The notes below the pieces were generated by a model. That model ran no database searches and had not been told where the DNA came from. It was given only the letters and a program-made list of their open reading frames with translations. Below, in pieces: positions 1,235 to 47,369 of a stretch of DNA of 64,000 bases (within the stretch, counting starts at the first letter, position 1; the number at the start of each line of letters is the position of its first letter). The DNA lies in contig BDDD01001628.1 in NCBI GenBank assembly GCA_001972305.1, positions 3,888-67,887 of the forward strand, read 5' to 3'. This DNA is from Cephalotus follicularis. Taxonomy: Eukaryota > Streptophyta > Magnoliopsida > Oxalidales > Cephalotaceae. The translations under genes and the position numbers were made by a program.

Positions 1235-1627
1235 GCAACCACTGGTTGTGTAGGAACCCCTACCCGTGCATGTGTGGAGTGCAATGCAGCAGATATAAAT
1301 ATGTATGCAATGCGAGATGCAGCAGGGAATAGTACAATATATTAATTCAGTTACTATCACTAACAGTTAATCATTAACAGCCATTATAAAAATCCTTACG
1401 CGGCATCCCCCTTGGGGAGGAGCGGTAACGCACTCCGGACGTTAAAGGAGGAGAAGCCAGGAGGAATAAAACACTATAATTCAGGCAGACCAATTCCTCG
1501 AGTCCTCGGCTGTGGGAGGAGCAATGTACGCGCTCCAGGCGTTATAGGCAGAGGAGAGGAATACATTCATTTATACCGTAACCGTCATTCATTACACAGT
1601 ACAATAACATTAACCGTGACATTCAGT

Positions 1628-1800
1628 GTGGCTCATCTCGGTCGGTGATCAGTCGGCTCATCTCAATTGGTGATCCGAAGGCTCATCTCGGTCGGTGATC
1701 CATTAGGCTATCTCGGTGATCCACCAGGCTCATCTCGAAGACAGCCTTGCCGACTCATCTCAGTTGGTGATCCCGTTGGCTCATCTCAACTGGTGATCAG
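1628..1800 (+). repeat. Tandem repeat, about 25-bp unit
   Basis: Six to seven imperfect units built on GGCTCATCTC followed by GGTGATC, separated by 3-8 variable bases, lie within the LTR. They are non-coding. Confidence 0.8.
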
Positions 1801-2576
1801 GCATAACACAATATATTAACATTTACTAATAGTACGTTACACTACCTTTACTACATTGACAATTATAATATTTCATTATTTATCATAGGGTCTGCCTTCA
1901 TTAACGCATTAAACCATATTTAAGTCATTATACCTTTTTATTGTTATAATCCTTGCTTTTTATTCCCATTTACTAACCCATAAAGTATATTGTCCAAGGC
2001 CTAAAATCCCACTTACTCATTTAGTGGAGTCAAAGCACAGGAAGGGCCAAACTCTGCCAAGCCCAACATTTAAAAGTGGCATTGGCGCCCACAATCGACA
2101 GCACCTTCTCTCTCCCTCTCATTTTGCCTGCATGCATGCTTCCAGGACCTTCACACGTTGGCGCCAGGCTTGTCCTTGCAATTGTACATCTCTGATCCCA
2201 TGGCGCACGAAGCTGTTCGTTAGTATGGGTGACAGTGGATGAGGGTGTCTCCTGCACTTGGTCCTCGGGAGTTTGGCGCCGTTAGCAGAGGACCAGCTTC
2301 ATGGCGCAGGTCGACTACGATGCTCTGTTCTGGCGCATCCTTGGGCAGGACAGAGGAGGGTACAAGGGCGCCTTCGTGGAGAGCTCTGGCGCTGTTCCAT
2401 GCTTGGGACGCATGGCCTTGCTTCCTCGGACACCTGGGACTAATGCGTCCTCGGCAACATCGCGGTGCTGGCACATCTCTCGCGTTGTGGAAGAGAACGA
2501 TACGCATGGCAGGGGACAAGGACGTCCTCTGCGCATGGTATCCTCGACGCCTAGTCACCTCGGCATTTGGAAGCAC

Positions 2577-2780
2577 TGCGTTTCTCCTCGGCCGTTCGCA
2601 CCTCGGCGCTGGCAGCACTGCGCTTCTCCTCAGCCGTTTGCACCTCGGCCATTGGCAGCACCGCGCTTCTCCTCGGCCGTTCGCACCTCGGTGCTGGCAG
2701 CACTGCGATTCTCCTCGGCCGTTCGCACCTCGGCGCTGGCAGCACTGCGCTTCTCCTCTGTCGTTCGCACCTCGGCGCTC
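2577..2780 (+). repeat. Tandem repeat, 42-bp unit, about 5 copies
   Basis: Units start TGCGCTTCTCCTC and end CTGGCAGCAC. One unit is 43 bp and the last is partial. The array is GC-rich and open in several frames on both strands, which explains the overlapping ORFs here. The surrounding LTR (2210-3060) is also rich in the words TGGCGC, CCTCGG and GAGGAC. Confidence 0.85.
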
Positions 2781-3849
2781 TCGGCAACCAGGGCATGCAG
2801 AGGACGCATGCTAGGGATAAGGGTGTCCTCGGCACCTTGGCTGCACGTAACGCATACAGAGGACAATAGCATCCTCTGGCGTACGATACTAGCGCGCGAC
2901 GTACACAGAGGACGCTGGCGTCCTCTGCACTCGAGGTCCGCACGTCACAGTGGCGTGTCCGCAGCGTTGGATGCTGGTGTGGCTGGGTAGAGGTCCTCGG
3001 TGATGGCGTCCTAACATCTCCCAGCGTCTGCATGGCGCACCTCAGCCCGTGACGCCATCATCCTACTGCCCAGCATGAGAAAAACGTAGAAGAGACGCTT
3101 GCGCAGTGACAGGGAAGCACAAGGCATCCTCGGCGTGCAAAGACAGTAATAACCAAAGCCATTCGCACAATGTATATATATATTCCAAAAACACTGTGCT
3201 AACAATAAAATAATGCCATAGTTAAATTAGTTAAAAGGATGCTGGTAGGAGGACCTACCTCAGTTCCTCTGGTTGTGTGCTTCCTTCCTGCTCAGCGCAG
3301 TTCGTCAATCACTCTTCCAACTCCACTGCTCTTCAGCTCACAATTGCAACTTCCCTTGCTTCAGTGTGTTTCTTGCGTTCCTTTCCAAGCTCAAAGTGAG
3401 AGATTATATAGGAGAGGAGGAGGGAGACAAGAATTCTCCAGATCTCTTTCATTTCTTGTCCTTTCCTCTCATTTTTTTTCCAGCAGCCGTGCCCCACACA
3501 CCATCTCCCCTTTATATAGCCACCAGCAGAAGGTTCTGGAATTCACTACCAAATTACAGTATTTCCTCTTCTAACTCCAATATGGGCTGCTGAGGACAAC
3601 CCACTTCTCCTTTTTATTTTTCTTTTCTTTGGACCAACATCAACATAAGTGTGGTCCAATTCTCAACCTTTCATTAAATTCAATTCTAATTGGGCCTTTA
3701 GCATTTCCGGTCCAAAATCTATATTCTAGACCCAACAGTCATTCATTAAATTTCCAGTCCCATAAAAATAATGATACATTTCGGGCCTGGATACTATTCC
3801 TCAAAATACTGTACATATAAATTTTATTTACAAAATTTCGGTTATTACA

Positions 3850-5008: not shown

Positions 5009-5440
5009 TGCAGTTCTCCTAACTTTCTTTTTCAAAACGTCGTAATTTAGGCGTTTGGAAAAAAAAATGAAAACGACGTTTTATTAAACGTGGTTCTCAT
5101 TTGCTTTAGGTTGAGAACGAAACTAAAGTGTTGCTTTCTACGCGTTCTCTCGTCCTCTCTGTTCGTCCCTCTCTCCTTCGTGCCTCTGCTCAGTCTCCCA
5201 CAACTCTCACTAGTCAGTAGCCACTCACACTCACAAAGCCACCATCGACAACACAATTGATCCGCCACAAAGCATCCCACAATCGACGCATGAGTCACCG
5301 TCCTCTCCTCTCTCTAAACGCACGACATTGAACGCCAGAAACCCAGATCGAAGCCACACTTTCTCCCATAACCACAAAGGCCAAAACCACCTCGCCTTCT
5401 CCTTCAGATTGAAGCCAGTACCAGATCGAAGCCAACACTG
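5009..5440 (+). other. Harbinger left subterminal region
   Basis: Non-coding; similar in inverted orientation to 26160-26587. Its last bases, rich in GCCTTCTCCTT and GAAGCCA words, resume at 18241 after the Tekay insertion. Confidence 0.65.
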
Positions 5441-7904
5441 TGGTCACACCCCATTTCTCAAACAACACTTAAGTGGTAGCAATTAACATAAAATCTGGAT
5501 TATCCATTTTCACGATAAAATTTAAACTTTAAAATAGTTATATTAATTGCGGAAGCATTCGATAATAAGCCGAATTAAAACGCAACATGTGTCCCATACC
5601 ACGTGTTACCAGCATCATAAATAAACCATTGTCAAAAGCCCTTAAACGGAGCGTAAATTAAAACATTCGATACGGTATTTGATCATGTGTAGAAATTCAT
5701 CAAATACATTATCCCATTAATACATTTATCCAAATAATTAAACCGTTATGATGACTGGAAATCCATCGGTTACCATAACATAACACAATAACCAATTAGT
5801 AATCCCAAAAAGAGTTATAACTTCACCAGCTAACATTATTACAAGTTATGCTTCTCCACGCGCGTCCACATTGGTCCCATTGCATCAATCTAAAATGTAG
5901 CGGGTTAACCTTTGTCCTCACTAGGCTAAGTAGAGAAGTTATAAATGCAATTCGGGGTCAATAATAATGAGTGTCATGTGTGAATGCATAATGATGCAGT
6001 ACATAGTGTATAACAGTACATATATATATATCTATATGTATATTTATCTGTATAACTAGAACATGTCCTCAAGGGGACAACTCAATCATATTCAGTACAA
6101 ACAATACCCACATTACTTACACGACGGCAGTAACAATAGTCAGGACACAGTAAACGATACTAGCACGGCGGCTAACTACCAACAGTACCCCCACTAATGG
6201 CAACAGTAGAAACGATACCCAACACGGTGGCTAAGTAACAACAATACCCCGCTAGAGGCAACGGTAACAATCACATTCAATAGTCAACTCAAGTGATGCA
6301 TAATTATAACACTTGAAACAGTAATATTGATGTATAGGCCATCTTTTAAAAAGTTCACAATATTTGGGGATTACCTCCCAGTCATTTGAAAATATATGTA
6401 TTTTCGTACAAAATAATGATTCATTTACAATCATTTATAAACTTCTAAAATGATATAACGCTTTAGAAAACAGTCACAATTCGTTTCACAATTCAGTTAA
6501 CGGTACAATATATAATGCAAACATATGCTCAGAATGCATCTAAGATTGTTGGCGACGCGCCTATGTTTATCACTTTCTCTAAGGTCGATTTTTCCTCTGT
6601 AACAATCGGTTGCTTTCCATAACAGTCGACTGTTCCCTTGAGTTAGTCGGTTGTCTTCCTTAGCAGTCGACTAATCTGGCACGAGTTTCAACAGTCGGCC
6701 GTCTTTCTTCGACAATCGACTGTTCTGGGCGGACAACACATGCACAGTAGACTGTTCTTCTTAACAGTCGGCTGTATACTTTGAGCAATCAACTGTTGTA
6801 CATCAACAGTCGGCTGTTCTGCGAAAAACAGTAGCACTCAATTCATTCTATTTCATCCAACATTCAATTACAAACCATTCTACCATATTCATACCATAGA
6901 ATATCATAAATGATCATTTCACAGTCCACAGACATAACTCAGTTCATGCATTTTCTCCGTTTTATCTCGATATCAGTGGAAGCTAATCATGGTAATGCAT
7001 GAAAACCAATCATTCTCAATTAGAACTCAGTACACATATCATGTTAACAATCAACAGTAAGCATGATATTTATCCCTTTAATTCACAGTCCATCAACCAT
7101 ATGATTCATTAATAACATCACTATTTTTAAACTCAAATAGCATGCATAATTTCTCCAGAATTTTCCCTTACCTTTGATTTCAAGTAAGAAATCTGTAAGT
7201 CCACCTCTTTAAGTCTCCTTTCCAGTAACTTTGAGCCTCCCAGTAGCTCCAAGAACAACTCGGTAGTTCCAACCCGAGCTCCAAGCTTCAACAATTTGAG
7301 AATCTCTCTCTCTTTCTCTCACTATTCCTCACCATTTTTCTCTGTAATTTCTCACTAGTTTCTTTCCTTTTTAGGTACTGCACGAGAGAGGTGAAGAGGA
7401 GAGCGTTTTATGCAGGCATTTCTCTCCCTCTCTCTTCCAACCCGTTTTCATGGCACTAAATGCCATAACCTCTCTCACAGCTGCATGCACACACACATGA
7501 CCAATTCTCCCTGTCCCATGACCTGTATGGCATACAGGTGTTCACTCTTCCCTTTGCATTGGCCGCATGACGCCCAACTGGCGTCCATTTCCTTCTTGTC
7601 AGTTGTTGCATGTGATCCCGTCATATGTTGCACAAAACAGAGCATAAACCAGTCGACTGTCCTTCCCAGACAGTCGGCTGTCTTCTTGGCAGTGGTTGCC
7701 AGGTGGCTCGACAACCCGCCAGTCGGTTGGTCTATTGTACCAGTCAACTGTCCCAGTCCACATTTCAACAATTATACCTCTAAGTACTTAATTTGATTTG
7801 GAAATCAACATATTAGCCAGAAAATTCATCTTTCTCATTAATTCGATAATAAGATTACATTTGAAATTCAAATATTATAACATGCAAAAATCTCAGGCGT
7901 TACA
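5441..7904 (-). repeat. 3' LTR of Tekay-like element, 2.46 kb
   Basis: It aligns along its length with 12589-18240. It ends GCGTTACA at 7904 (TGTAACGCC in element sense). It holds arrays of CAGTCGACTG/CAGTCGGCTG words at 6590-6830 and 7650-7755, and looser CAGTAAC words at 6115-6250. The open frames at 7410-7796 are chance frames in these arrays. Confidence 0.9.
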
Positions 7905-7922
7905 TCCACCCCTCCTTCAAGG
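7905..7922 (-). other. Polypurine tract
   Basis: The minus strand reads CCTTGAAGGAGGGGTGGA immediately before the 3' LTR, the expected primer for plus-strand DNA synthesis. Confidence 0.85.
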
Positions 7923-7939
7923 AATTTCGTCCTCGAAAT

Positions 7940-9250
7940 TATAACAGTACTAGAAAAAGTGCGGGTAATGCTCTCGAATATCATCCTCACGTTCCCAAGT
8001 GGCCTCATCCAGATGGTGGAACTGCCATTGAACCTTTAACATCGAAATGGTTCGGTTTCTCAACATCTGTGTCTTCCAATCTAGAATCCGCACCGGCGAC
8101 TCCTCGCAAGAAAGGTCAACTCGCACAAGAACCGAATCATAATCTAGGACATGTGATGGGTCTCAGATGTATCTCCTCAGCATAGACACATGAAAGACGT
8201 CTTGCACCTTTGATAGTGCAGGAGGTAAAGCAAGCTGGTAGGCTACCTCCCCAACTCTCTCCAAAACCTCAAAGGGACCAATATAGCGCGGAGCTAACTT
8301 GCCCTTTTTCCCAAACCTTTGAACGCCCTTCCATGGTGAAATTTTCAAGAACACATGATCACCAACATCGAAGGTTAAAGGCCTCATCTTGACACTGTCA
8401 ACATAACTCTTCTGCCGTCTTTGAGCAGCAAGCAGCTTCTCCTTGATCACCTTGACTTTTTCTAAAGTCTCTTCAACTAGGTCAGATCCAAGCAATGGTC
8501 GCTCACCAACATCATCCCAACAAATGGGTGATCTACAATTCCTCCCATACATAGCCTCGTATGGGGCCATACAGATACTGGAGTGATAGCTGTTATTATA
8601 AGAAAACTCTATCAAAGGAATGTGATCCTCCCATGTACCAACAAAATCGATAACGCAAGCCCGGAGCATATCCTCCGCGGTCTGGATGGTACGCTCAAAC
8701 TGCCCATCGGTCTGAGGGTGAAAGGCAGTGGTCAGGTTTAGCTTCGTCCCAAAAGCTGTCTGAAATCTCTTCCAGAAATTGGAAGTGAGGATCGAATCTC
8801 TGTCACAAACAATACTCACGGGAACACCGTGCAACCTCACAATCTCCTTGACGTATAACCGAGCCAACTTGCTCGCTGAATCTGTGACATGAGTGGGTAG
8901 AAAATGAATTGACTTCGTGAGTCTATCCACGATAACCCATACTGCATTGTGACGATGTCTAGTCAGTGGAAACCCTGAGACAAAATCCATGTTTATGTGT
9001 TCCCATTTCCACTATGCCACTGGCAAAGGCTTTAACAACCCTGCCCATCTCTGGTGTTCGGTCTTGACCTGCTGACAAGTCGACACTTCGCAACGTACTC
9101 TGCAATCTCACATTTCATACCTGACCACCAGTAATTCTTCTTCATATCCTGATACATCTTGGTGCTACCAAGATGGATACTGTACCGAGACTTGTGAGCC
9201 GTATAGAGCAACTCACTCTTCAATCCGTGTTCGTCTGGTAGACACACCCG
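7940..9250 (-). CDS. Integrase and chromodomain region (Tekay-like)
   Basis: In element order: the HHCC zinc-binding region (about 9200-9040, HLGSTKMYQDMK then a Cys pair), the integrase core beginning MDFVSGFPLTRHRHNAVWV at about 8990, the motif TAFHPQTDGQ near 8700, and a GPFEVLERVG-type C-terminal domain. A chromodomain-like end follows (about 8100-7940, VQWQFHHLDEATWE). The longest intact stretch is 275 codons (8990-8163). The chromodomain directs insertion to chromatin in this clade and places the element with chromoviruses. Broken. Confidence 0.88.
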
Positions 9251-9429
9251 TCCCCGAAATCTCAGAATACCATCGGCATGTACCCAAAAATCGACTCCAA
9301 GTCCATATTCTCTAGAATCTGCTGCAATTCAGGATCATGTGCTTGAGCGTTTTTTATTTCGTCAAGCAAAGCTGGTTATACTCTAATGCTAGCCACAAAA
9401 ATACCCGATGATTGATCAAACGGAGTCCA

Positions 9430-10740
9430 CTACTGAAAATCTTCTAACATCTTCCATTGCGACACCATCGTACTGGCAATCATGGCCTTGCGACTCAAGG
9501 CATCAGCGACCACATTCGCTTTCCTCAGATGGTACTGAACACTATAATCATAATCATTAAAGAATTCCAACCACATTCGTTGCCTCATGTTCAACGTATC
9601 TTTGCAGAACATGTAACTTAAACTCTTATGATCTGTAAAGATTTTGAACTGCGCCCCATAAAGATAGTGCCTCCACTTCTGAAGGGCGAAGATAATCGCT
9701 GCAAGTTCAAGGTCATGTTTCGGGTAGTTCTCCTCATAGGGCTTTAACTTCCTCGAGGCATATGCAATCACTCTGCCCGCTGCATCAACACACAGCCCAA
9801 GCCCTTACCTGATGCATCACTGTAGACTGCAAAACCCTCATTACCCTTGGGTAATGCCAAGACAGGTGCAGTAACCAACCGATTCTTCAGCTCACAGAAG
9901 CTAGCTTCGCAATCCTCATCCCAGACAAATAAGGTCTTCTGCTGGGTCAGTCTAGTCAAAGGCACGGCTATCCTTGAAAAGTTCTAAATGAACCTCCGAT
10001 AATACCCCGCCAATCCAAGGAAGCTACGCACCTCTGTCACATTCTTCAGTTGCGGCCAGTCCCGCACAACCTCGGTCTTTGACGGATCCACCGTCAAGCC
10101 TTCTCCAGATACGATGTGACCGAGAAAGATCACATGATCAAGCCAGAACTCACACTTGCTGAACTTGGCGTACAAAGGATGCTCTCTGAGAACTTGCAAT
10201 ACTAGCCTCAGATGATGAGTGTGTTCCTCCTCACTCCGCGAGTATACCAGTATATCATCAATAAACACTACGACAAACTGATCCAGGTATGGTCAGAATA
10301 GGTCATTCATCAATGACATGAAAGCTGCTAGTGCATTGGTAACACCAAACGGCATCACCAAGAACTCGTAGTGACCATACCGTGTCCAGAAGGCAGTCTT
10401 CTCAATGTCTCCTTCCCTTACTCTCAGCTGGTGATAACCCGACCTCAAATAGAGTTTGGAAAACACCCTCGACCCTTGCATCTGGTCAAACAAATCCTCG
10501 ATGTGGGGTAAAGGATACTTGTTCTTGATAGTTTCCTTATTCAACATTCGGTACTAGATGCAAAGCCTCATCGACCCATCCTTTTTCTTGACAAACAGCA
10601 CAGGCGCACCCCACGGAGAAACATTGGGTCCAACAAAACCTTTATCAATTAGGTTTTGCAACTGTAACTTCAACTCTCATAACTCTGACCGTTCCAGGAA
10701 CAAGATCAATAAAGAACTCCATACTCCGCTTCGGTGGTAA
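9430..10740 (-). CDS. Reverse transcriptase and RNase H region (Tekay-like)
   Basis: Running from 10740 down: RT palm motifs ([17 protein letters not shown], then [10 protein letters not shown] near 10430, VMPFGVTNA near 10330, the catalytic box [11 protein letters not shown] near 10260), the thumb ([12 protein letters not shown] near 9990), the connection (CVLMQRAE) and RNase H ([11 protein letters not shown] near 9620, [12 protein letters not shown] near 9500). The order is standard for Ty3/gypsy. The region is broken into several frames. Confidence 0.88.
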
Positions 10741-10802
10741 AGACCCCAAGTGGTCAGGAAATACATCTGGAAATTCACACACAACCAGAGTCTCCTCCAT
10801 AC

Positions 10803-11240
10803 TCAAACCTTCTCCTTCCTTCGATCAATTACGTAAGCCAGGTATCCTTCGCATCCCTTCTTTAGATACCTCGATGCTCGAACAAAGGATATGATCGGTG
10901 TCGAGAACCCTTTGTCTCCCTTGAACTGAAATGTCGTTCCGTCGGGCAGACAAAAATCCACAGTTTTATTATAGCAATCCATGCGAGCACAGTGTGCTGA
11001 TAGCCAATCCATCCCCAGTATAACATCAAAGTCACGGATAGGTAGCACAATCAAATCTGCATACAAGGAAATACCTGCCATAGACATCTCACAACTCCTA
11101 TATACCGAATCAGTGTACATAAAAGTCCCAGTTGGTGTACTCATATCAAGCATATATGACATGCAGTCAGGGGTAACATCTAAGCAAGATGCAAAACGTG
11201 CAGATATAAAAGAATGCGATGCTCCAGAATCCATCAACAC
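10803..11240 (-). CDS. Retropepsin region (Tekay-like)
   Basis: An open stretch of 145 codons begins with the aspartic-protease motif DSGASHSFIS (11235-11206) and contains VILGMDWLSAH near 11000, the two hallmarks of gypsy proteases. It would cleave Gag-Pol inside the particle. Confidence 0.87.
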   Translation of the reverse strand: MLMDSGASHSFISARFASCLDVTPDCMSYMLDMSTPTGTFMYTDSVYRSCEMSMAGISLYADLIVLPIRDFDVILGMDWLSAHCARMDCYNKTVDFCLPDGTTFQFKGDKGFSTPIISFVRASRYLKKGCEGYLAYVIDRRKEKV

Positions 11241-11299
11241 CCTAACAGAAAAACCATAGATATACAGAGTACCTCCAACAACAGAAGTCGACTCTGGAA

Positions 11300-12478
11300 C
11301 CTCTTTCTGAGTAAATACAAAGACTCTACCTTTTACGATGCCGTTGCCGGTGTCTCTCCTCTGTAACGGTCCCGTGCCGCACCACTACTACTCCCAGGCC
11401 CAGTCGGTACTGCCGCTGAACTCTTCGGACAATCTCTCACTGAATGGCCAGACGCCCCACACCGCAAACACAACCCATTCTTCGCCCAACAATATTTCAC
11501 CTGATGACCTGAACGACCGCAATGAAAGCAAATACCAGACCTTGCATTACTCCCTTGACTCGGAGTACCCTGTGTAGCAGTCTGGTCAGATCTATTTTTG
11601 TAGGATTTTGTTGGAGACCCACTTCCCTGCCATTTCGAGGAAGCCAGTCTAGATTGTGTCGGGATCTACTTATTCTGCTGTGCACGGGCCCTCTCTGCTC
11701 GATCTTCACTAGAAATACTCTCCAGCAGTCTCGCTTTCTGAGCGACCTCTGAAAAAGTCCCCAGCTCCATAGCCCTGATCCTTGACCGAAGATCCGATCG
11801 CAGACCTCTCAGAAACCTCCGTATCTTCTTCACTTCATTAGCTACCAGATAGGGTGAGTGTCTGGCTAGCTCCATGAACCTTGATTGATACTCTGCCACT
11901 GTCATATCTCCTTAACGCAACTTAAGGAGCTCTGTCTCCCTCATCTCCTGCTCAATTCGAGGAACATAAGTCTCCAGAAATTCTGTCTGAAACCTAACCC
12001 AGGTACTGTCAAGCCCCATGGACTCCCATTTTTCTTTGATCATCTCCCACCAGTGGGTGGCCTCTCCCCATAGACGATATGCGGCGAACTTCAAATTCTG
12101 ATCGTCCGTACAGTCCATAACATCAAATATCTTCTCCAAATCCTGTAGCCAGCTCTCTGCAATGGTGGTATCGAGTTCCCCTTGAAAACTGGGTGGATTT
12201 TACCGCATGAACCTCTCAAGGTCCCTTCCAAACTGATTATCGTCCTCACCTGGGCAATGGTCCGGAGCTCTATGTTGTGGCCTAGCTTGTGCGTAGTATT
12301 GGCGCATCCCCTCCGCAATAGCCATATTAAAGGCCATTTGCTGTTGAAAATAATCTGCGATACGGACCATCGGATTCCTCTTATCTTGGGGAACATTCCC
12401 CCATTGCAGAACATTAGCTCCCTCAGGGGCATTTGCTCCAGCAGCTCTAACTCTAGCGCGTGTTCTCCTTCTGCCCAT
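11300..12478 (-). CDS. gag region (Tekay-like)
   Basis: It starts with a basic Ala-rich segment at 12478 (MGRRRTRARVRAAG). The Ty3 gag domain follows (KFAAYRLWGEATHWWEMI near 12080, then ETYVPRIEQEMRE and MTVAEYQSRFMELARHSPY), and a CCHC-type zinc knuckle (LCLRCGASGHS near 11470). Broken in several frames. Confidence 0.85.
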
Positions 12479-12573
12479 TTGTTCCTATATGGAAAAGATG
12501 TCATCAGTAATCATCTCAAGGAACATTAGTCAATTGCCAAGGAAAATATCCTAGCTAAGCATATATGGAATAT

Positions 12574-12585
12574 GCTCTGATACCA
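12574..12585 (-). other. Primer-binding site, tRNA-iMet
   Basis: The minus strand reads TGGTATCAGAGC, three bases inside the LTR edge at 12589. Confidence 0.9.
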
Positions 12586-14853
12586 CGTTGTCACACCCCG
12601 TTTCTCAAACAACACTTAAGTGGTAGCAATTAACATAAAATCTGGCTTATCCATTTTCGCGATAAAATTTAAACTTTAAAACAGTTATATTAATTGCGGA
12701 AGCATTCGATAATAAGCCAAATTAAAACGCAACACGCGTCCCATACCACATGTTACAAACATCATAAATAAACTATTGTCAAAAGCCCTTAAACAGAGCG
12801 TGAATTAAAACATTCGATACGGTATTTGATCATGTGTAGAAATTCATGAAATACATTATCCCATTAATACATTTATCCAAATAATTAAACCGTTATGATG
12901 ACCGGAAATCCATCGGTTACCATAACATAACACAATAACCAATTAGTAATCCCAAAAAGAGGTATAACTCCACCAGCTAATATTATAACAAGTTATGCTT
13001 CTCCACGCGCGTCCACATTGGTCCCACTGCATCAATCTGAAATGTAGGGGGTTAGCCTTTGTCCTCACTCGGCTAAGTAGAGAAGTTATAAATGTAATTC
13101 GGGGTCAATAATAATGAGTGTCATGTATGAATGCATAATGATGCAGTACATAGTGTATAACAGTACATATACATATATCTATATGTATATTTATCAGTAT
13201 AACTAGAACATGTCCTCAAGGGGACCACTCAATCACATTCAGTACAAACAATGCCCACGTTACTTACACAGCGACAGTAACAACAGTCAGGACACGGTAA
13301 ACGATACTAGCACGGCGGCTAACTACCAACAGTACCCCACTAATGGCAACAATAGAAACGATACCCAACACGGTGGCTAAGTAACAACAATACCCCGCTA
13401 GTGGCAACGGTAACAATCACATTCAACAATCAACTCAAGTGATGCATAATTATAACACTTGAAACAGTAATATCGATGTATAGGACATCCCTTAAACAGT
13501 TCACAATATTTGGGGATTACCTCCTAGTCATTTGAAAATATATGTATTTTCGTACAAAATAATGATTCATTTACAATCATTTATAAACTTCTAAAATGAT
13601 ATAACACTTTAGAAAATAGTCACAATTAGTTTCACAATTCAGTTACAATATATAATGCAAACATATGCTCAGAATGCATCTAAGATCGTTGGCGTCGCGC
13701 CTATGTTTATCACTTTCTTTAAGGTCGATTTTTTCCTCTGTAAGAGTCGACTACTTTCCATAATAGTCGATTGTTCCCTTGAGTTAGTCGGCTGTCTTCC
13801 TTAGCAGTCGACTAATCTGGCACGAGTTTCAACAGTCAACTGTCTTTCTTCGACAGTCGACTGTTCTGGGCGGACAACACATGCACAGTCGACTGTTCTT
13901 CTTAACAGTCGGCTGTATACTTTGAGCAGTCGACTGTTGTACATCAATAGTCGGCTGTTCTGCGACAAACAACAGCACTCAATTCATTCTATTTCGTCCA
14001 ACATTCAATTATAAACCATTCTACTATATTCATACCATAGAATATCATAAATGATCACTTCACAGTCCACAGACATAACTCAGTTCATGCATTTTTTCCG
14101 TTTTATCTCGATATCAGTGGAAGCTAATCATGGTAATGCATGAAAACCAATCATTCTCAATTAGAACTCAGTACACATATCATGTTAACAATCAACAGTA
14201 AGCATGATATTTATCCCTTTAATTCACTGTCCATTAACCATATGATTCATCAATAACATCACTATTTTTAAACTCAAATAGCATGCATAATTTCTCCACA
14301 ATTTTCCCCTAGCTTTGATTTCAAGTTAGAAATCTGTAAGTACACCTATTTAAGTCTCCTTTCCAGTAACTTTGAGCCTCCCAGTAGCTCCAAGAACAAC
14401 TCAGTAGTTCTAACCCGAGCTCCAAGCTTCAACAATTTGAGAATCTCTCTCTCTTTCTCTCACGATCCCTCACTATTTTTCTCTATAATTTCTCACTGGT
14501 TTCTTTCCTTTTTAGGTGCTGCACGAGAGAGGTGAAAAGGAGAGCGTTTTATGCAGGTAGTTCTCTCCCTCTCTCTTCCAACCCGTTTTCATGGCACTAA
14601 ATGCCATAACCTCTCTCACAGCTGCATGCACACACACATGACCAATTCTCTCTGACCCATGACCTGTATGGAGTACATGTGTTCACTCTTCCCTTTGCAT
14701 TGGCCGCATGACGCCCAGGTGGCGTCCATTTCCTTCCTGCCAGTTGTTGCATGTGATCCCATCACATGTTGCACAAAGCAGAGCATAAACCAGTTGGATG
14801 TCCTTCCCAAACAGTCGGCTATCTTCTTGGCCGTGGTTTTCAGGTGGCTCGAC

Positions 14854-17800
14854 TATCATGCCCCGAACCGCGAGAGTAACCCACGATCCGACACGTGAGA
14901 TACCAATCCGTTCCGTCACTTCATCATTATATTCATATTCCAAAGTGCTATACTTATAAATCTTAAAGTCAAAGTCATATACATCAGCGGAATAGTCAAT
15001 TGGAATAAAAACTAACTCTTAAAATCTCCCAAAAATCGGCTATGATGTATTCGTTTATCGGACTTAACCCCCTGTAAAGAAAAACACATTTTTATATATT
15101 CACACTCCCGAAGGAGGAATCAACAGTTTATGTATATATGGGGCTCAGCCCTCAGCAATCACAGCTTAACTCATTATTACATCATTCTAATGCCTCAAAT
15201 GATGGGTCTGTCCCTGTTTAATACATCAACACATATATCATAAGCACTACCACATGTCGGCAGGTCGATAGCTGAAATAAAACATCTCGTATACATCTTT
15301 AGATTTGTCTCTTTACATAACAAGTCTTATATATCAGTACAGTTCAACTATAAACATAAGGCCCCTTTTTACTATTCTTTATAAGTAAACCCATATCCAT
15401 TACCATAAGTAAGATCATATACAATATGGCAAATCAAAACATGCTACAGAAAATCTATCCATCCTAGCCTGTCTCATTTAATACAATTCATATAAGTAAA
15501 TCCATAACATGATCATAACGAAACCATATACAATAACAACACAATCCCCACACCACTACTATCCAAGATCCAGCTTAAGTATCCATCCATCTCGATCCAT
15601 TTCACTGTGATCCATCACCTGGGTCTGAGCCTGACCCACTCCGCATACAGGGAAATGGGTCAGCGACATAATGTCGTGTAGGGTATACTATGTGCTATGT
15701 ATGCAACAGTTATAACAGTATGCAATGTATGCATCAGTACAATAGTGTGACAGTGTAACAGTATGCCGTGTAACGGTACAGTGACAGTAGAATACAGTAA
15801 CAGTACCGTATAGTTTTCAGTGAACAGTAACGGTGTATAATAACAATGGCAGTAATAGTGCAGTATATCAGTGTACAGTTGTGGACAGCTTCGATATACC
15901 AACCGTCCCTAAGCGGAGTATATCTAGCTAGTCCTAATCACATCCAAGGCCATAGGCCTACAGACACTCAGTAAACAGTCAGTAACAGTACATGGGAATA
16001 AACAGTTGTAGGGTCAAGTACTTCTCTGCCACTCCGGCCCGAGATAGTACCCCCATCGACTAAACACAACCCTCCCGTGTTATAGCCGTGTGGGGCATAG
16101 GATAACACTGGCCATGAAAACAGTACAGTAGCGCTAGACCTGAAGGTGCCAGCCAGTACAGTAACAGTAACAATAGTGCTAGACTCGAAGGGTACCAGCC
16201 AGTAACAGTAATGCTAGACCCGAAGGGTACTAGCCAGTAACAGTAACAATAGAGCTCTCAGTAACAGTAACAGTATCAGTACCAGTAACTGTATCCATCC
16301 CTCAGGCGGTGACTCCCGTAGGTCACAAAAAAGGAGGATTAACAGTGATGGGTGGCCAAACACCCATAATACTTCATGACGGAAATGAAGATTATGAATG
16401 GGTTATCCCGTACAGTCTCAAACAATAACAGTAAACAGTAATCCTACGGTAGTCGTACCCAGTAACGGTAACAGTAAACAGTAGAAATGATAGGGACCTA
16501 AAGGACCAATGTGATCCACATCCGTCAATACAGTTGTAAAACAGTTTTTAGTAACAGTATTCAGTAACAGTTTCAGTAACAGTTTTCAGTAACAGTTGTT
16601 GGTCCCTATCGAAGTTTGTAAAATAATGGAGAGGAAGTCCAATTGGATATCCGGGCCCAGATGTCCAAAAGGAGCCATCCTAACCATTCTTAAAAACCAT
16701 TTGCATGAAAACTCTTTTGTTGCATTGCTTCAAGAATCACTTTGAAAACTTGATTTAAGATTCAACAGTGTTAAAAGATGATTCGCATAGGATACAAGGC
16801 CTTAGGGAGGCTTCCTATGGAATCAATTTAAAGAAGAAACAGTTTGAATTTGAAGACAGTGAGAAACAGTGCCATTTCGCAAAACAGGGCACTAAGCATC
16901 AACTAGTTTAGTTTAAAGGTGTAAAGTGTCAACTATTTAGTTTAACACAAAAAAGAGTCGATGGTTTTAGAAAGCATAAATATAAAGCATCGACTACTCA
17001 GTTTGAAGGCATGAAAGCGTCGACGGGTCAGTTTTGAAAGCAGTAAAGTGTCGATGGTTTTATTAGAAACAACAGTTCGCAAAGCAGTTCGCAAATCAAT
17101 GGAACTATGTCCAAAATCCATGAAATCCGTTTCAATCTCAGTAAAGACAGTTTATAAATCCATACCCAGTTCCCAGTCGGTGCAATAACCAGTGAACAGT
17201 AGCATTTTCAATAATAGTATAACAACAGTCAATCAACACGCAATAACCGTAACGCGTAACAATTCATACAATTCATTGAAATGCATGAATGCAGTGCAAA
17301 TAGTATAACCTACCTGTTGAAGCAGTAACAATAGTTGTGCTTGCTATTTAAGGGATTCTATAACAGAACCAACGAACCGTCAGCTCCTCCAAGCTTGAAC
17401 CGGCTATCGAATCGCAATCGCCTTGGAACCTCCTATCCTTGATCACTTCATTCACACTGCATATACAACACATTCCCGTTACGCTCTACGCACAGGAATC
17501 AACACTGCCATCACCGAAGCTCCGGCCAGTTTCTGACCAACTCACCCAACTTCGGCGACACCCGTAAACAGACTCCAAATTGGCTGATCAATTCATATCT
17601 ACCAAGGAACCATCGTGACTCGCCGTAAAACGAGCTGTCAACGGCCGACAGTGAGTTCGACTCACTGAGTCAACTCGTCGGTTAACCACAACTTCGGTCA
17701 CCACCCTAAAACGCCATACAATCATCAGTTCTAGGCGTCACAACCAGAGACTCGCCGAGACTCGTCAGTCACGGCCGGCAGTGAGTTCGACTCACTGAGT

Positions 17801-17994
17801 CGACTCGCCGGACTTCAACAGTTCCGATCAACACTCAAAAATGCCATAACCGACCTTAAAATCCTTCAATCAGTCCATTGGCGACCCCGTAGTGCCTGGC
17901 GTTTTAACGCCAGACGCTTTTTCTTTTTCTTTTTTCTTTTTTTATATATAAATATATATATAATTATTTATTCATATATATCCGGGGCATTACA
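14854..17994 (-). repeat. Solo LTR A, gypsy, 3.14 kb
   Basis: Flanked by TCGAC on both sides (14849-14853 and 17995-17999). It starts TATCATGCCCCG and ends CCGGGGCATTACA, so the termini are inverted although the left base pair is TA rather than TG. It is related to solo LTR B (35171-38750) in the same orientation. Minus orientation is inferred from the shared hairpin (15632-15662) with the LTR at 888-3849. It is dense in CAGTAAC words at 15690-16620 and holds GTCGAC-like words at 16900-17070. No gag or pol is attached, so it is a product of LTR-LTR recombination. Confidence 0.88.
15632..15662. other. LTR hairpin, diverged copy
   Basis: TGACCCA and TGGGTCA arms as in 1205-1234, with mismatches at arm positions 8 and 10 and a weaker inner stem. 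Confidence 0.5.
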
Positions 17995-18240
17995 TCGACA
18001 GCCCACCAGTCGGCTGGTTCATCCAACCAATCGACTGTTCCATTAAACAGTCCACCAGTCGGCTGGTCTATTGTACCAGTCGACTGTCCTAGTCCACATT
18101 TCAACAATTATACCTCTAAGTACTTAATTTGATTTGGAAATCAACATATTAGCCGAAAAATTCATCTTTCTCATTAATTTGATAATAAGATTACATTTGA
18201 AATTCAAATATTACAACATGCGAAAATCCTGGGTGTTACA

Positions 18241-20199
18241 ACTGCCTTCTCCTTGAGAATCGAAGCCACCATCGCCAGTCACAGTATGTCGTCTCTCTCT
18301 CTCTTTAAACTCGATCTCTTTCTTTCGGCCATATATTGCACATGAAATTCAGTTACTAAAAATTCCAATCCATATATTCAACTCTGTTGACAGATTCATA
18401 TACTGATTACATAGATTAAACATATTTAACCAATTTTTTATTCATCAAATTTACGTTTTTATTTCATTTCTCTTTTTGACGAAACAAAGTCACAGAGAGA
18501 CGCGAATCGAATCCTGATATCACCTCTTTTGATATTGATGTTTGTTCTCTATTTAATTTGGTTTTCTTGTTTCATTACCATTTATTGTTTGCTATTTTAT
18601 ATCACCTGAATTTCCATTCAGTGTTAGAATTTCTTTTAGTAGCATGTTTAGGACTTTGCAATCAATAATTAATATTTCTTTTTGAGAATTCTTCTCTTTT
18701 TGCTGGTGGATTCCACAATTTACTTCGGGTTTACACGCATTTTAGCCTACTTGCTATCAATAAGTAAGTTTACTAGGGTAATCAGATGTAGTTTCTGCCC
18801 TTAGGTTAAATTTATCAAAGACAGTGAAAGGAGACAGGGAAGGCTGCAGATCAAACTTCTTGTGTGTGTATGTGTGTGTGTCTCATGTCTGTGAGAGAGT
18901 GAGAGAGAATGGGGTATAATAAACGTCCATAAAAACGGCGTAATTTTCGTGGCCACTTTCATGTTGTTGTTTGGTGTGATTGTGTTTTTGTGAGAAATGT
19001 AACTATCATTGAATCACATGACTGTGCCTTTTTGTTGCCATCTCTTGAGATTCTTAATTCTGCTTTGTTTGTTCTGTTTCCATTAAAGTGCTTGCTCTAA
19101 TCGTTGCATATGCACGTATATACATACAATTATTTATGCACTATTTTCTTGTTTCTCTTTTTTCTTTTTACCTTTATGAGATACATGGTCCATGAGGCTT
19201 CTTTTTTTTTTTATTAAAGGGCAAGGAACAGTGAGGCATCACTTTCTTTCCTATTTCATCTACCACGAATAATATATAATTGAAACGAGGGACCCTCCAT
19301 ATTTATGGGATATATAATCTACATAGTTCTTGTGTAGCTGAAGCTTTTCAAGTTTTGTTGGGGTTCATATATTGCCAGCATTTGGATTTTGGTATCACTT
19401 GGTCCTGTGTTTTATCTCTTTTATTTATTTGTTCTTTTTCTTCGTGAAATTTAAAAGAAAGATAAGTGCTGCGTTTTAGAAGTTTGGTGGGGATGTGATA
19501 GAGCCATAAAGGTATGGAAGGCATGTTGGTTTATTTAAAAAGTCGGCAAGTGTGTGAGGCCTGCTTTAGCTTTCTGGTAGAGTGTGTGTATATGCATAGG
19601 TTACCTTAAAAATGTTGTCATGAAAGCTCTAAAATAGTCACTTTAAACCATTATTTACATTAAATTACTAGTTAAGTCAATTATGTGTGTCAATTATACA
19701 TAACAACAGGGTGAGTCTTTGTTGATTAACGAAGCAAAAGAACACTTTAGCTTATGTCTTTGGTCAAAAGAATGCCCTTTTTTTTTGTGGTTTGTTTTGT
19801 TTTACCCATTGGATTTGTAAGAAGTTCTGTTAAATCAACTTTATGTCAATGACCCTTGTACCCATCCTGCTCTGTTTATGCATGCCCTGGGGGTCTTATA
19901 TTCTTTTTGTCGATGCTCATAAATTTGCATAGCTTCATTTTTTTTTGCATAAATTTGAATGTTTAATGCATATATGACTCGCTGATGTTTGCAAACAAGA
20001 AAATTGATTAAACGAAGGAAAATTGCACAATGGTTCGATCATGTTGTCTGTGCATATGTATTTGAGGATTTATGAATAAGTAATATGGGGATGTGAACTT
20101 TTCTTTTTCTTGTGTAATCGAGGCTTTTTATTTACCTAGATGGTAATCAAGAAAACAACTCAACAAGAAACTTAGCCTATGCCTCTTGTGATGATATTT
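18241..20199 (+). other. Harbinger 5' non-coding region
   Basis: It continues the Harbinger left arm after the Tekay insertion (GCCTTCTCCTT and GAAGCCACC words shared with 5395-5440). It is T-rich, with a TC microsatellite near 18290 and a TG repeat near 18870. No open frame of note; probably promoter, 5' UTR or intron of the transposon genes. Confidence 0.5.
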
Positions 20200-23513: not shown

Positions 23514-24344
23514 AGTGGTTGTGGATCAGGCACCATTGTCGATACCTATGGTATTTGTGTTGGAAACAATTGATAACCTTTGCTGCTAAATTCGGCTACT
23601 GTTATGTTAATATCACAATAATGGTTTGTTTCATATGGTTGTAATTTGTTGTCATTGCTAGTTGTTGTTATTGGTACAGAACTATTATTCTTGTAAACAA
23701 CTTCAATGACAAATTATTTAGGACTTTTCATCATTTTAATGTTTTTATTAATTAATCATGTAATTTTATTATCAACCTAATGACATGTGTTATATGATTT
23801 TTCACTTGTATTTGATAATTGATTAATTTTATAAGCGATTTTCTTATTGTCTCGAACAACAATCAGACAAACGTAAGGATGTTGTTTTGGACAATAGGGA
23901 AAAATGTAAAGCCACCTTATGTTGTCTTTGATGAATTGTGACTGTTAATTTAACCAACGTTAATTAATGATGATAGTTCATTAAATAAAATTTATATTTT
24001 AAGTGATTAAATAATTTACATAGTGATTTTCATTTCTGCCCAACGATGATGCGAGATGATGTGTGGAACTATCATTAGTATATTATTAATCAGACCAACG
24101 TAGGGTTAATAATATAAATATACTGTTAAAAAATTTACTGAAATTTTATGTGGGTGTTAAAATAAAAATTTCAGTGTAGCTAACTGATAGCTCTACAGTT
24201 AGTTTATGTTTATAACTGATAATTGATGTATGTTTCTTTTGTGAAATTATGTAGTATATTGTAAGCATGTTAATTTATGTGATTATACTGTAGCATTTAG
24301 TCCATCTGTTATTTCTGGATATCTGTGTGATATTGAACCTCTTA
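23514..24344. other. AT-rich interval between two transposon ends
   Basis: An interval of 831 bp with no open frame and no recognisable element. Confidence 0.4.
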
Positions 24345-24460
24345 AGCTCTGTTTGGTAATTATGTGAGAAAAAGTGTTGTAGGATGGTGCTGTGGGAGAA
24401 AGTGTTGTGGGAGAAAGTTGTGCTGTGGTTGAAGCTGTTTGGTAATGCTTTACAAGAAAG
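24345..24460 (+). repeat. Internal Harbinger-type left end
   Basis: AGCTCTGTTTGGTAAT opens a left-hand end preceded by TTA. Words GTGTTGTGGGAGAAAG and GAAGCTGTTTGGTAAT follow. It pairs with 23430-23513 as an inverted repeat, but the two face away from a shared body. Confidence 0.6.
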
Positions 24461-24587
24461 TGTTTTCTGACCCAAAAAAAATATGTGCAAGTCTCCCACT
24501 AGACAAAAAGACTGCAGATTGTCCTCTGCCTCACAACCCACATCCTCACGCCATATCATATGTTGGCTTTTGCCACCCCTTTAAATA

Positions 24588-25719
24588 TGTTAAGGATTGA
24601 TATTTCGATGATTAACAAACATGAAACACTTATATGCATATTTTAATATCTTACAAACTCATCTACTTACTTGATTTTATGTCAAAAGTGTTGCAAAACT
24701 TAAAACTGCATATACAGGCAAAAACAGCCGACTACCGAATATGAACAGCCGACTGTTTAGGTTGAGTAGCCGACTGCTAAGTATAAACAGCCGACTGGAA
24801 TTACAAAGGATCCCAGCAACTGGAATTACACTCCATCCAGCGGACTGTAACAGGGGTCCAGCCGACTTCCAAGTCAAAACAGCCCACTGTCCAGATTCAC
24901 CAGCTGACTGTCACCAAATGTCAAGATTAGACCAGTAGCTTTTTGGAAGTCATTTCTACCTCCACCAGCCGACTGGAACAGAGCACCAGCCGACTATTTT
25001 GGAAAAACAACCGACTGTCAAATTGAACCAGCTGACTGCCTTCTCCAACGACTATAATTAGAAATATGCACAAACAGCTCCAGCTGACTGCCATGAAAAT
25101 CCAGTCGACTGGATTGGGTTAGATGTTTAAAAATAGATCCGTTGGAGCTTGTCTATTTAAGCAAAAGTGAGCTATCATTCCAAAGACGTGATAGCGAGAC
25201 AACACTTAATTCTTCCAAGCAACTCAACAACAATCCTACATCTTTCAAATCACTACCGAAGCTTGTCTCAAGTACTGTAAAATCTATTTTAGAGAGCTAT
25301 CACTTGTAAGCTTTACTAAGCAATATCCAACCTTTGAGAGGTTATTGTAAATAACATAAAACATCCTTACAGTCTTTTATTGTATAAGGGGAGTGAACCC
25401 TTAGTGAGATAATCAATGGGAGTGAACCCTTAGTAGGATTATCGGAGGCGAGTGAACCCTTGTAAGGTGTTTTCTTTGATTTGCACCCGCAATCCAAAAT
25501 CAAAGGTTACTAGTGGTTTCTAGTGGAAACTCAAGGAGCTACCTTGAGAAAAGTGGATGTAGGCAAGAGTTAAGTCGAACCACTCTAAAACCGTGTTTGC
25601 AATCTCTCTAACTCTCTCTCTTTATTACTTGTGAAATTGTTTTAGTTGTTCTTGATTGCTTATTTGATTCTTGTTTATTTGTTTGATTTCCATTAGTTTA
25701 ATTTATTATTCCGCAAACA
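24588..25719 (+). repeat. Solo LTR, SIRE/Maximus-like copia, 1.13 kb
   Basis: It starts TGTTAAGGATTG and ends TTCCGCAAACA, with flanks AAATA (24583-24587) and ATATA (25720-25724) as a 4-of-5 target duplication. The 3' part holds the AAGTGGATGTAGGC and GAACCACT words typical of SIRE LTR ends. At 24720-25110 there are seven exact GCCGAC words in direct orientation plus variants, upstream of a weak TATA-like TATTTAAG near 25153. Repeated AGTGAACCCTTAGT units occur at 25390-25460. Confidence 0.8.
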
Positions 25720-25724
25720 ATATA

Positions 25725-26324
25725 ACTTTAGAAGGTTTCCATATAGGTTTTTCATCACATAACGCAAACCCAACATGCACACACCCGTCTAGCCATGGCC
25801 ATAGACCCACCACGAACAACCACACCCTTGACCAGATCAGACCCACAATGCACAACACCAGATCATCACACAACCCCTGCATCGCATAGCTTCACCTTTA
25901 TCACAGCAACGCTAGCAAGCCCAACTCTCGCCAGTCAAAGTCAGCAATCACCAGTACCAGCTACGCTACAAACATACCAGATACTCCAGCGCATCATCGC
26001 AAACCCATGACACCGCCAACAATCAACGCCAACCACAACCATCACCATAGGGACGCCAGCAACGCCACAACGTCCTTGCATCATCCTCACCACTTTCAGC
26101 ACCAATTACTTATTACTGTTCATTAATTCAGTCAAATACCATAGGATATAACTCTTACAAGTGTCAAGACATTCCCAATTTGAGTTCCAAAATCATTCAA
26201 CAATTAACAACGGCAACAGTGTCGACTGGCGACACTATTGCTGGCTGCGATGATGGGGATACTGGTGTGGTGCGTGGCTGGGTCTAGTGCTATGGAAGGG
26301 TGTGGGTATGTGAAGAGGATTGGT
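25725..26324. other. Harbinger right arm, no gene
   Basis: C- and A-rich sequence (CCACAACC-type words) before the subterminal repeats. The short open frames at 25671-26010 show no homology I recognise. From about 26160 it mirrors the left arm. Confidence 0.45.
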
Positions 26325-27770: not shown

Positions 27771-28647
27771 ATAATGTGCAATGGTATGGTAACATGACAT
27801 GTGTTCACCACAACCTCTTGCCATGTGTCCTACATTCATTATTAATCAAGTGGCTTCTATAAGAAGATTCCGGACACTAAGAGAGGGGCATCATCTCTCA
27901 TTCCCCGATTATTCTCACTCACTCGCCTCCTGTTAGAGAGAGACAGGGAGAGAGGGAGTTAGAGATTGAGAAAGCTCGAATTAGAGCAAGGAAGATTCGT
28001 TGAACTCATGGCAGAGTGTAGAGCCTGAAGGAAGAAGTAGATCGAGGTTTTAGCAACAAAGTTCCTCAAGATCTGCAATTATCGAGGTAGGCACTACTTA
28101 TATGACTGAACTCATAGATATAATTGCCTTGAATGATGTATGTTGTTATGAACTGATAGATCAGAGCTAGATGAATAATTTAGGAGCCCTGGTCCGCTTA
28201 ATAGCATACTATAATAGATATCAAAGAAAGGATGGAGATTTTGAGGTTATAGACCCAAATCTCTTCTCTCCGCTGATTGTGAATCCACAAGTATGGATCT
28301 TAGTGATGAAGTTAATTTTGAGTAGTAGCAACCACTGGAGCTTATGGATTGAATTGAACTGCAATGGTTATAAGTCCTTATCGATGTTCTGCAAAGACGA
28401 CAACGTTGGCACTTTGCTTATGGGATAACAATTGACGCCAAGAGCAATTGTCACATGTAAACCTCCAAGGCAGAGGTCAGACCTGGAGCAAAAGATTTAA
28501 GGTAGATCTAGGAAAGCTAAGGCAGACCTCGGTGCTTAGCGCCTTGTTCTCTGCTAATCACCTTGTTTTCAACCCCCAGCTATTCCTACACTCAATTGGG
28601 TTCCATAGGAAGCCTCCCTATGGCTGTATAATCTATGGAAACCTCCT

Positions 28648-28862
28648 TTATCGGTTAGGACCTTCGAGAACTAGTAATCATATCGTTATCGGCTAGCACC
28701 TTCGGGAACTAGTAATCGTATCGGTTAGGACCTTCAGGAACTAGTAATCGTATCGGTTAGGACCTTTAGGAACTAGTAATCGTATCGTTATCGGCTAGGA
28801 CCTTTGGGAACTAGTAATTGTATTGTTATCGGCTAGGACCATCGGGAACTAGTAATCGTATC
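28648..28862 (+). repeat. Tandem repeat, 34- or 40-bp units
   Basis: About six units on the pattern TAGGACCTTCGGGAACTAG then TAATCGTATCG. They alternate between a short form and one with an added TTATCG. Confidence 0.85.
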
Positions 28863-28875
28863 ATCAAAGAACTCC

Positions 28876-29020
28876 ATATGTGAAGGCAGACCTTTGTGCA
28901 TGAAGGCAGACCTCCATATGTGAAGGCAGACCTCCGTGCGTGAAGGTAGACCTCCATATGTGAAGGAAAACCTCGTACGAAGGCAGACCACGCGCTAGAA
29001 GGTAGACCTCGGAGGTAGAG
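28876..29020 (+). repeat. Tandem repeat, about 20-bp units
   Basis: About seven imperfect units of GAAGGCAGACCTCCATATGT. Confidence 0.8.
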
Positions 29021-29932
29021 GTCAGACTACGTGAATCCTTCTCTGAAGCAGATGGTTTCAAATATGAACCTTCCAAGGGGTTTTATAGTTAAAGACCTAT
29101 AGGGTCTCTGACTTGACAGTATTGTTAAGTCTTGACGAGATAGTCTACTTCCAACCTTCACTAAGTCATGGAGGGTTGACCAGACCAGGGATATCTCATC
29201 CCCTTCCTTTCAGTACTAGTAGTGCGTGGATGATAGTGATGCTACCTTGAGCCGAGGAGGCCGAGGTATGCTTCTCTGCTACTTTGAGCCAAGAAGGCAG
29301 GAGCACTTATGCTTGTTGACTCCTTTACCTACAACACCTAGAGTGTGTAGGAGGTTGGAAGTCCTCTGCCCGCTCATACTTTGTGAATATAGAGTATAGA
29401 TCGGCAGAGTAGTGTGTAGGTCGGCAGAGTAGTGCATAGAAGGGTGAAAGTCCTCTGTCTACTCTTACCTTGTGAATATATGTACCTCCAGACGACTTCG
29501 GGTTAGTCTGGGTAATGCCTGTAGGCCAAAAAGGGTATGAATGATGACTTCTATGATATGTATACAACAATCAGGGGTAGGTACATATGATATATCGAAG
29601 TGACTAGATGGGCCACATTGGAGAGCAGGGCGTCCTCTGCAGTGCAGTTCCTTCCATTTATACCTACATTGTATAAGAGACTTAATGTTAAGAATGATTG
29701 TACTTCAGTGATATGTGACTTGCTGACTTGTGGCCGTGCTATTGATATAAGATGATGTATATTATTGGGGCTATCCACGCCAGATATGAATGATCATATT
29801 CTGCATACGTGCTTATATATTGAAGTTTTAGATTTATTGCCTATTTTGGATGGTGATGATTGATTGGTATGGATGGCATGTCACGTGTTGGACCATGGGG
29901 TCCTCCTCCTAGTTTGGGGCGTGACTGTTTGG

Positions 29933-38750: not shown

Positions 38751-38755
38751 TCCTG

Positions 38756-46634: not shown

Positions 46635-47369
46635 ATCTCCCCCTTTTTGATGATGACAAAACAAACACAATAAAAAGAATAAAAACTTAATACCAAATGT
46701 GAGAATAACACAAATATAACTTTCCTTTAGATTTTGCATGAAGCTTTGCTCATTATACCAAAAGACAAAACATATACAAATTTAAGCATTCATTATAGAG
46801 CAAACATCACTCCCTCTTAATGGGATATCCATCAAAAAAAATATTAAACACATTTTAATGTAGCCTTTTAATTTCTCAAGCATATGTAGCCTTAAACATC
46901 TCCCCCTTTTTGGAAATCATCAAAAAGGCTAAGGAGTTGTAAAACATCCCTTGGCTTTATGCAATAAAAATCAATCTCACATAAACAACAAATAAGTATC
47001 AATTATACATTATGCCATTAAATCAAACAAATATCAATAAGTAAAATATCAACAACAAACAATCTCCCCCTGAATAAATCAATTCACTAACACTTTTAAA
47101 AGCAATATATCAAATTATTCAAGGAGATCATATATCAATATTCACATATCATCAAGAATGAAACTTATTGTAAACAAATTTTAAACTTGCAATGCATAAA
47201 AATATTTCCAATAACAGAAAATTATAATTCCAAATTCATCAATAGAAATGTTGTCCAACATTGAAACTCATGTCAATAACAACTCAATTAAACCATAATC
47301 CAAGAGTTTTAAAAACAAAAACAAAATCACATAAAAGATGTACAGGAATTTGCAAAAACAGAAACTGGA
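46635..47369 (-). other. Polypurine tract and 3' non-coding region
   Basis: In minus sense, ATCAAAAAGGGGGAGAT abuts the LTR, a typical SIRE tract. The remaining 700 bp are AT-rich without genes. A second purine run (AAAAAGGGGGAGAT) occurs near 46900-46915. Confidence 0.7.

Follow-up and report, generated by a model that had tools for sequence, protein, structure and literature searches.

Two related LTRs in one region of the Cephalotus follicularis genome are filled with different four-letter words, CAGT in one and CCAT in the other, which raises the question of whether dispersed words are replaced as a set between relatives and what process would replace them. The window, by which we mean the whole stretch of 64,000 nucleotides that was analysed, lies in an assembly of 1.58 Gb and 9746 contigs. 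It contains solo LTR A (14854-17994, sense strand minus, CAGT class), flanked by the 5-bp target duplication TCGAC (14849-14853 and 17995-17999), and solo LTR B (35171-38750, minus strand, CCAT class), flanked by TCCTG (35166-35170 and 38751-38755). The insertion site of A is the second LTR of another element, H. Ten pieces of the two LTRs align, nine of them with 71-81% identity and a 31-base piece with 90%, which bears out the homology proposed in an earlier, sequence-only reading of the window: A and B belong, as related solo LTRs, to one family of Ty3/gypsy type. Genome-wide, the PBS TGGTATCAGAGC adjoins the family LTR end at 1141 junctions (reversed control, 0). Domains read by eye include RT-, RNase H- and integrase-like pieces between two family spacers in copy L077, and gag-like pieces soon 3' of the PBS in the CCAT copy L013. 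From the style of LTR and PBS, together with general sequence features, we provisionally regard the family as a putative Tekay/Del-like chromovirus.

Word domains of LTRs A and B

The main word domain of A (15690-16620, minus strand, 931 bp) holds 50 CAGT, counted on the plus strand (the antisense strand of the LTR), against 2 ACTG; 500 dinucleotide shuffles gave 13.2 ± 3.1 CAGT and a maximum of 23. It also contains 5 CCAT and 8 CCGT. The corresponding domain of B (35990-36600, minus strand, 611 bp) has 26 CCAT against 3 ATGG (shuffles 7.7 ± 2.2, maximum 14, n=500), with 3 CCGT and no CAGT. The description of A as studded with CAGT and of B with CCAT was accordingly accurate. The words are directional and of the form C[CA][GA]T, and in hand-chosen copies they are surrounded by A/T-rich flanks.

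In both LTRs the main word domain lies upstream of a putative TATA box. That of A is at 15092-15098 on the minus strand (sense position 2897), adjoining a block conserved in B, and the match in B (sense position 3337) stands beside the same block. Because further TATA-like matches exist in both LTRs (in A near the start and at 2662, in B at 3118), the placement of the words in U3 is a prediction only.

The family is abundant. A conserved spacer, ATGAAGATTATGAATGGGTTAT (16385-16406, plus strand), served as a genome-wide anchor and was found with at most two mismatches at 5870 places, compared with 3 for the reversed control. The CAGT-type word triplet CAGTAACAGTNNCAGTAAC occurred at 615 places (reversed control, 3) and its CCAT version at 150 (control, 6); the CCGT version, at 22 places, was barely above its control (11).

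Word classes at homologous slots

We sampled 121 loci, which yielded 109 distinct copies, and compared three blocks, all on the minus strand. L1 (15969-15989) consists of four word slots directly after CAGACACT; R1 (16407-16498) contains slots E, F and H and is closed by GATAGGGACC; R2 (16519-16610) is a length-variable word run from CATCCGTCA to TTGGTCCCTATC. R1 was obtained from 104 copies and R2, of 41-165 bases, from 97. The sample is not a random one. Best matches to A or B, these two included, account for 16 of the 104 copies, and the remaining 88, seven of them of the CAGT class, are first-listed pattern matches and chosen pairs. The R1 alignment comprises 99 copies, five of the 109 being without R1 and five of the 104 having an R1 of <60 or >95 bases, and word shares were counted in 96, eight of the 104 with fewer than four words being left out.

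Among these 96 copies the share of CAGT in all CAGT and CC[AG]T words was <0.1 in 78, at least 0.9 in 13 and between these values in 5. CCGT and CCAT formed a graded, skewed series, with 46 of 81 copies having less than 10% CCGT and the others ranging up to more than 90%. On this count the sample divides into CAGT copies and a continuous series that runs from CCAT to CCGT. The word classes with conserved spacers anticipated by the sequence-only reading were found; CAGT stands apart at homologous slots, and CCGT and CCAT grade into one another.

Class was assigned from the word counts of R1 and R2 together (15 CAGT, 55 CCAT, 17 CCGT, 12 of 99 without class) or, less circularly for R1, from R2 alone (15 CAGT, 57 CCAT, 9 CCGT, 5 of 99 mixed and 13 of 99 without class). 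Under the joint assignment, slots E, F and H of R1 taken together carried the word of their class in 33 of 45 cases for CAGT, 131 of 165 for CCAT and 32 of 51 for CCGT. When class came from R2 only, CAGT copies had CAGT in 33 of 45 R1 slots, and the 171 slots of the CCAT copies included 125 CCAT, 7 CCGT, 2 CTGT and 3 gaps. The nine CCGT copies showed 15 CCGT, 4 CTGT and 2 CCAT in 27 slots, and the five mixed copies 8 CCGT and 3 CCAT in 15. Gains of 6-bp units also occur in R1 among the aligned copies. L1 was compared over 51 distinct sequences, L003 having CAGTAAACAGTCAGTAACAGT and L063 CCATAAACAATCCATAACCAT, for instance. Here slots 1, 3 and 4 swap cleanly across classes. Many copies of CCAT type have CAAT in slot 2, an extra A or two is found in some B-like copies, and in the CCGT copies L055 and L070 and in L076 neither word is clean. 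Cleanly homologous slots across classes number about six, namely the three of R1 and slots 1, 3 and 4 of L1.

Three examples of swapped words had been quoted for A and B, and all are present in the sequence. The blocks after CAGACACT, where B carries one extra A plus CCGT, and before GATAGGGACCTA are in register, but the run before TTGTTGGTCCCTATCG varies in length and does not correspond slot for slot. The claim that dozens of words changed in step likewise stands as to the swap at homologous slots but overstates their number. Independent microsatellite expansion with no positional match, the outcome against which the claim had been set, was rejected, as slots E, F and H of R1 and the slots of L1 are in register in both of these alignable blocks.

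The letters within a slot differ in how freely they vary. Ungapped alignment of the CAGT copy L008 with any one of 19 chosen other-class copies covered 5-12 of its CAGT words, and over these slots word position 2 was identical in 0-40%. Position 1 was also variable (20-90% identical), the final T was identical in 73-100% and the spacers in 63-71%. Near relatives of CCAT type keep some CCGT slots (L034 compared with L033, 3 of 4; with L039, 2 of 4).

Replacement of the whole set at once was not supported, as some copies combine words. CCGT and CCAT are graded and regional: L055 has CCGT around R1 and CCAT further right, and L034, L025 and L063 combine CCGT words in R1 with words of CCAT type in L1. 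In L109, CAGT, CCGT and CCAT are mixed in one tandem array, and L076 is a recombinant. This was apparent from its affinities, since left of a point near the start of R2 its nearest relative in most blocks is L055, of the CCGT class, and right of that point its nearest relatives are CAGT copies; L076 was therefore rejected as a transitional form.

A midpoint-rooted tree of 67 copies, built from 908 spacer columns, placed 13 CAGT copies in one clade with a support of 1.0. For the 60 labelled copies (7 of the 67 were left out), class changed in 11 steps over all columns compared with a shuffled minimum of 19, in 12 compared with 17 over the left columns and in 13 compared with 18 over the right columns. 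The left and right trees disagree: CAGT is one clade in the right tree (0.999), and in the left tree 11 of the 13 CAGT copies group, with L060 and L076 placed elsewhere.

A possible fourth class was seen once, in L050, where CGAT (4) and CTAT (8) replace the usual words of R1 and R2.

Explanations for the word changes

A constraint on the word itself accounts best for the slot result, and the simplest such constraint is selection through a DNA-binding reader. We tentatively propose, at a probability of roughly 0.42, that the pattern of word classes at homologous slots, in one orientation and upstream of a putative TATA box, with mixed and recombinant copies, reflects a U3 binding-site array for a sequence-specific nuclear factor. 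This factor, most likely host-encoded, would activate the LTR promoter or keep it from silencing. Within A/T-rich flanks, source lineages would have moved between the site versions CCGT, CCAT and CAGT; one slot after another would be rewritten by selection for whichever version is in use, and short tandem duplication and recombination between families would add and move words. We infer that the words have a protein reader, that the host encodes it and that its action benefits the element. Speaking for a reader are the enrichment above all 500 shuffles, the strand asymmetries of 50:2 and 26:3, the prediction of R1 slot words by a class taken from R2 alone, the position of the words upstream of a putative TATA box in A and B, a word position 2 that differs at homologous slots while the final T and the spacers are mostly kept, the split of CAGT shares into low and high values with few between, and the shared orientation of CAGT in the LTRs of A, C and H. 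Against it count the limitation of cleanly homologous slots to about six, the disagreement of left and right trees, the variability of word position 1, the CCGT slots kept by near relatives of CCAT type, the CCGT copies L055 and L070 and the recombinant L076 with their lack of clean L1 words, and L109 and the CCGT/CCAT gradient, which fit a gradual, partly neutral process.

A neutral process could take the form of concerted evolution, in which slippage, short tandem duplication and RT template switching spread a word variant with no reader involved. The variable length of the R2 arrays, the 6-bp gains in R1, the mixed tandem array of L109, the recombinant L076 and the regional distribution of CCGT and CCAT within copies are what such spread would produce. 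However, slots E, F and H and slots 1, 3 and 4 of L1 keep their own flanks and a near-constant spacing as their letters change, so that conversion tracts would be just a few bases long, and the CCGT in spacer CATCCGTCA is not converted. With about six clean slots, we consider neutral spread within arrays less likely than a reader but plausible. CpG decay would likewise dispense with a reader, CCGT giving CCAT on loss of a methylated CG and CAGT arising from CGGT in the same way. CCGT and CCAT are indeed one CpG transition apart and mixed within copies, and slots E, F and H of the CCGT class show even products (5 CCAT and 5 CTGT of 51). The same tetramer CCGT outside the array, in spacer CATCCGTCA, provided a control. 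In the 57 CCAT copies the spacer tetramer was CCGT in 32, CTGT in 9, CCAT in 8 and other in 8 (29 CCGT, 10 CTGT and 9 CCAT of 55 under joint R1 and R2 classing). Decay of the spacer was even (8 CCAT, 9 CTGT) and the slots of the same copies were uneven (125 CCAT, 2 CTGT), with a Fisher P of 2e-8 in which related copies are treated as independent; because the copies are related, P values overstate and independent switches are few. CpG decay is therefore rejected as a full account, and the contrast suggests that the source elements probably already had CCAT at most of these slots. With just 0-4 CGGT in the scanned part of each copy, and with CCGT to CAGT requiring a transversion, decay is a highly improbable explanation of the classes, although it may have been the source of the first CCAT words.

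Selection on methylation context, by which word changes would rid U3 of CG and CHG sites without any protein that reads the words, draws on the letters: neither CG nor CHG is present in CCAT, CCGT contains the two and CAGT contains CHG, and disfavour of CTGT, a CHG site, would fit. But CAGT brings CHG sites in, and the spacer CCGT is still intact in 32 of the 57 CCAT-class copies, and we give this account very little credence. A VANC-like protein, encoded by the element, could instead read the word and strip methylation from its own family. Dense noncoding arrays in the same orientation that differ between relatives are the VANDAL pattern (Hosaka et al. 2017, PMC5735166), and in some sunflower Tekay elements an additional open frame at the 5' side carries signals for nuclear localisation (PMC11728184). 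No such gene was recognised by eye in H, L013, L080 and L081, whose interiors are few and partly degenerate. The gag-pol-like interior of H and the gag-like pieces soon after the PBS in L013 point away from a dedicated upstream element gene, and an element-encoded reader appears quite improbable. VANC proteins are of the DUF1985/DUF287 type; a genome search for DUF1985 (PF09331) gave no match, and control genomes were also without a match.

A reading of the words as MYB sites, based on MYB core motifs, was considered as a possibility. More generally, the words of this high-copy group may amount to a rewritable U3 recognition code for activation or anti-silencing, VANC-like but with no dedicated element gene, in which tens of word copies would be read by a trans-acting, element-favouring factor and families, by changing word at homologous positions, would become separately addressable; this extension is doubtful on present evidence. 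Slot-for-slot word replacement in an abundant Ty3/gypsy-type family, with an internal control that speaks against CpG decay, would carry the idea of VANDAL-type motif turnover over to LTR retrotransposons, and word class would be a simple handle on the ways in which LTR families evade control or have it in common.

Known systems and other elements of the window

In VANDAL elements, joint turnover of short motifs underlies sequence-specific anti-silencing (PMC5735166; Sasaki et al. 2023, PMC10398659). As in the VANC targets, the words are dense, short noncoding motifs in one orientation that differ between related families and are gained and lost through tandem repeats. The parallel drawn by the sequence-only reading was supported as to turnover between related families, and single orientation and noncoding LTR position were likewise supported. 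VANDALs are Arabidopsis MULEs, DNA transposons whose encoded binder has been examined experimentally; the present case concerns an LTR element with a hypothetical reader, and part of the change is base for base at fixed slots. With its LTR ends, its target duplications of 5 bp, its junctions with a PBS and its gag-pol-like pieces, the element is not a Mutator-like DNA transposon. The boxes of Sirevirus LTRs (Bousios et al. 2010, PMC2829016) are similarly a high-copy clustered motif upstream of the TATA box, retained while the remaining LTR diverges. They have a palindromic CGG-CCG core and belong to Ty1/copia elements, unlike the directional words of approximately 4 bp with A/T flanks, swapped between classes at homologous slots, of this Ty3/gypsy-type LTR. 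The resemblance to VANC targets and to Sirevirus boxes is one of behaviour, not of membership, and the element is no VANDAL.

In Del/Tekay elements the variable, fast-evolving 5' part of the LTR has been proposed as a moving silencing target (Cruz et al. 2014, PMC4029996). It is a CpG-rich island of variable length in monocot groups, absent from the eudicot group, and the accessible part of the account does not invoke word classes. Sunflower Tekay group 2 (PMC11728184) is alike in being a Tekay-type element and has its own candidate nuclear protein; unlike there, no extra 5' frame was recognised after the PBS in L013, and dispersed words go unmentioned in the portion of that source available to us. 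In titles and abstracts of the open-access literature we found no description of such word classes in LTR elements. In Tnt1 and Tto1, U3 holds repeated sites for host factors, the enhancer boxes, which vary from one subfamily to another; they are few, whereas the words described here are dispersed in tens.

Two further LTR types in the window carry CAGT in the same relative orientation as A. Element H (5440-18241, minus strand) has LTRs at about 5440-7905 and 12587-18241, the second split by A, and a PBS at 12585; CAGT outnumbers its reverse by 33 to 9 in the first LTR and by 28 to 7 in 12587-14853. Solo LTR C (54548-57042, plus strand, target duplication AAACT) has 31 against 8 on the antisense strand. 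LTR A had no match to C or H at E 1e-8, and at lower stringency C aligned weakly with A or B (best 1e-4, with B). The H interior of approximately 4.7 kb contains, by eye, sense pieces that resemble gag, protease, RT, RNase H and integrase (7953-12510) and are separated by gaps of at most about 250 bases, as well as two antisense open frames of 100 and 126 amino acids. Its open frame at 8163-8990 matched Pfam SH3_Tf2-1 above the cut-off and an integrase core below it. The palindrome AGTCGACT occurs three and five times in the H LTRs (5440-7904 and 12587-14853).

Inspection by eye for a coding element of the CAGT class recognised no gag-pol-like frame in the approximately 2.2 kb of L080 (longest frame, 122 amino acids), which lies between two A-type LTR matches on contig C7852 with 87% identity to the word domain of A, nor in the CAGT copy L006/L081 as far as a second LTR-type junction next to a stretch of N. 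Other candidates did not yield one either: L124 (C149) is related to the LTR of H alone, L122/L123 (C73) has gag-like pieces after a PBS and an LTR piece that did not reveal its word class, and the pairs on C71 and C75 are not coding elements of one class. In L079, of 10,000 bases, three LTR spacers of the same orientation follow each other at intervals of approximately 4.3 kb, as a series of short elements with possibly shared LTRs.

Dispersed words are also found elsewhere in the window. A copia-type LTR pair (45341-46635 and 50851-52099; 91.7% identical over 1295 columns) flanks a copia-type gag frame and carries another such word in an unrelated superfamily, GTTGACG, 10 and 7 times with none on the reverse strand. 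A near-palindromic word, GCGTYGACGC, was noted by eye in LTR B (36980-37300) and LTR C (55650-55790). Dense one-strand hexamers occur at 1501-3600, 24001-25800 and 27901-29400, namely CCTCGG (up to 15 against 0), CCGACT and AGACCT (each 8 against 0).
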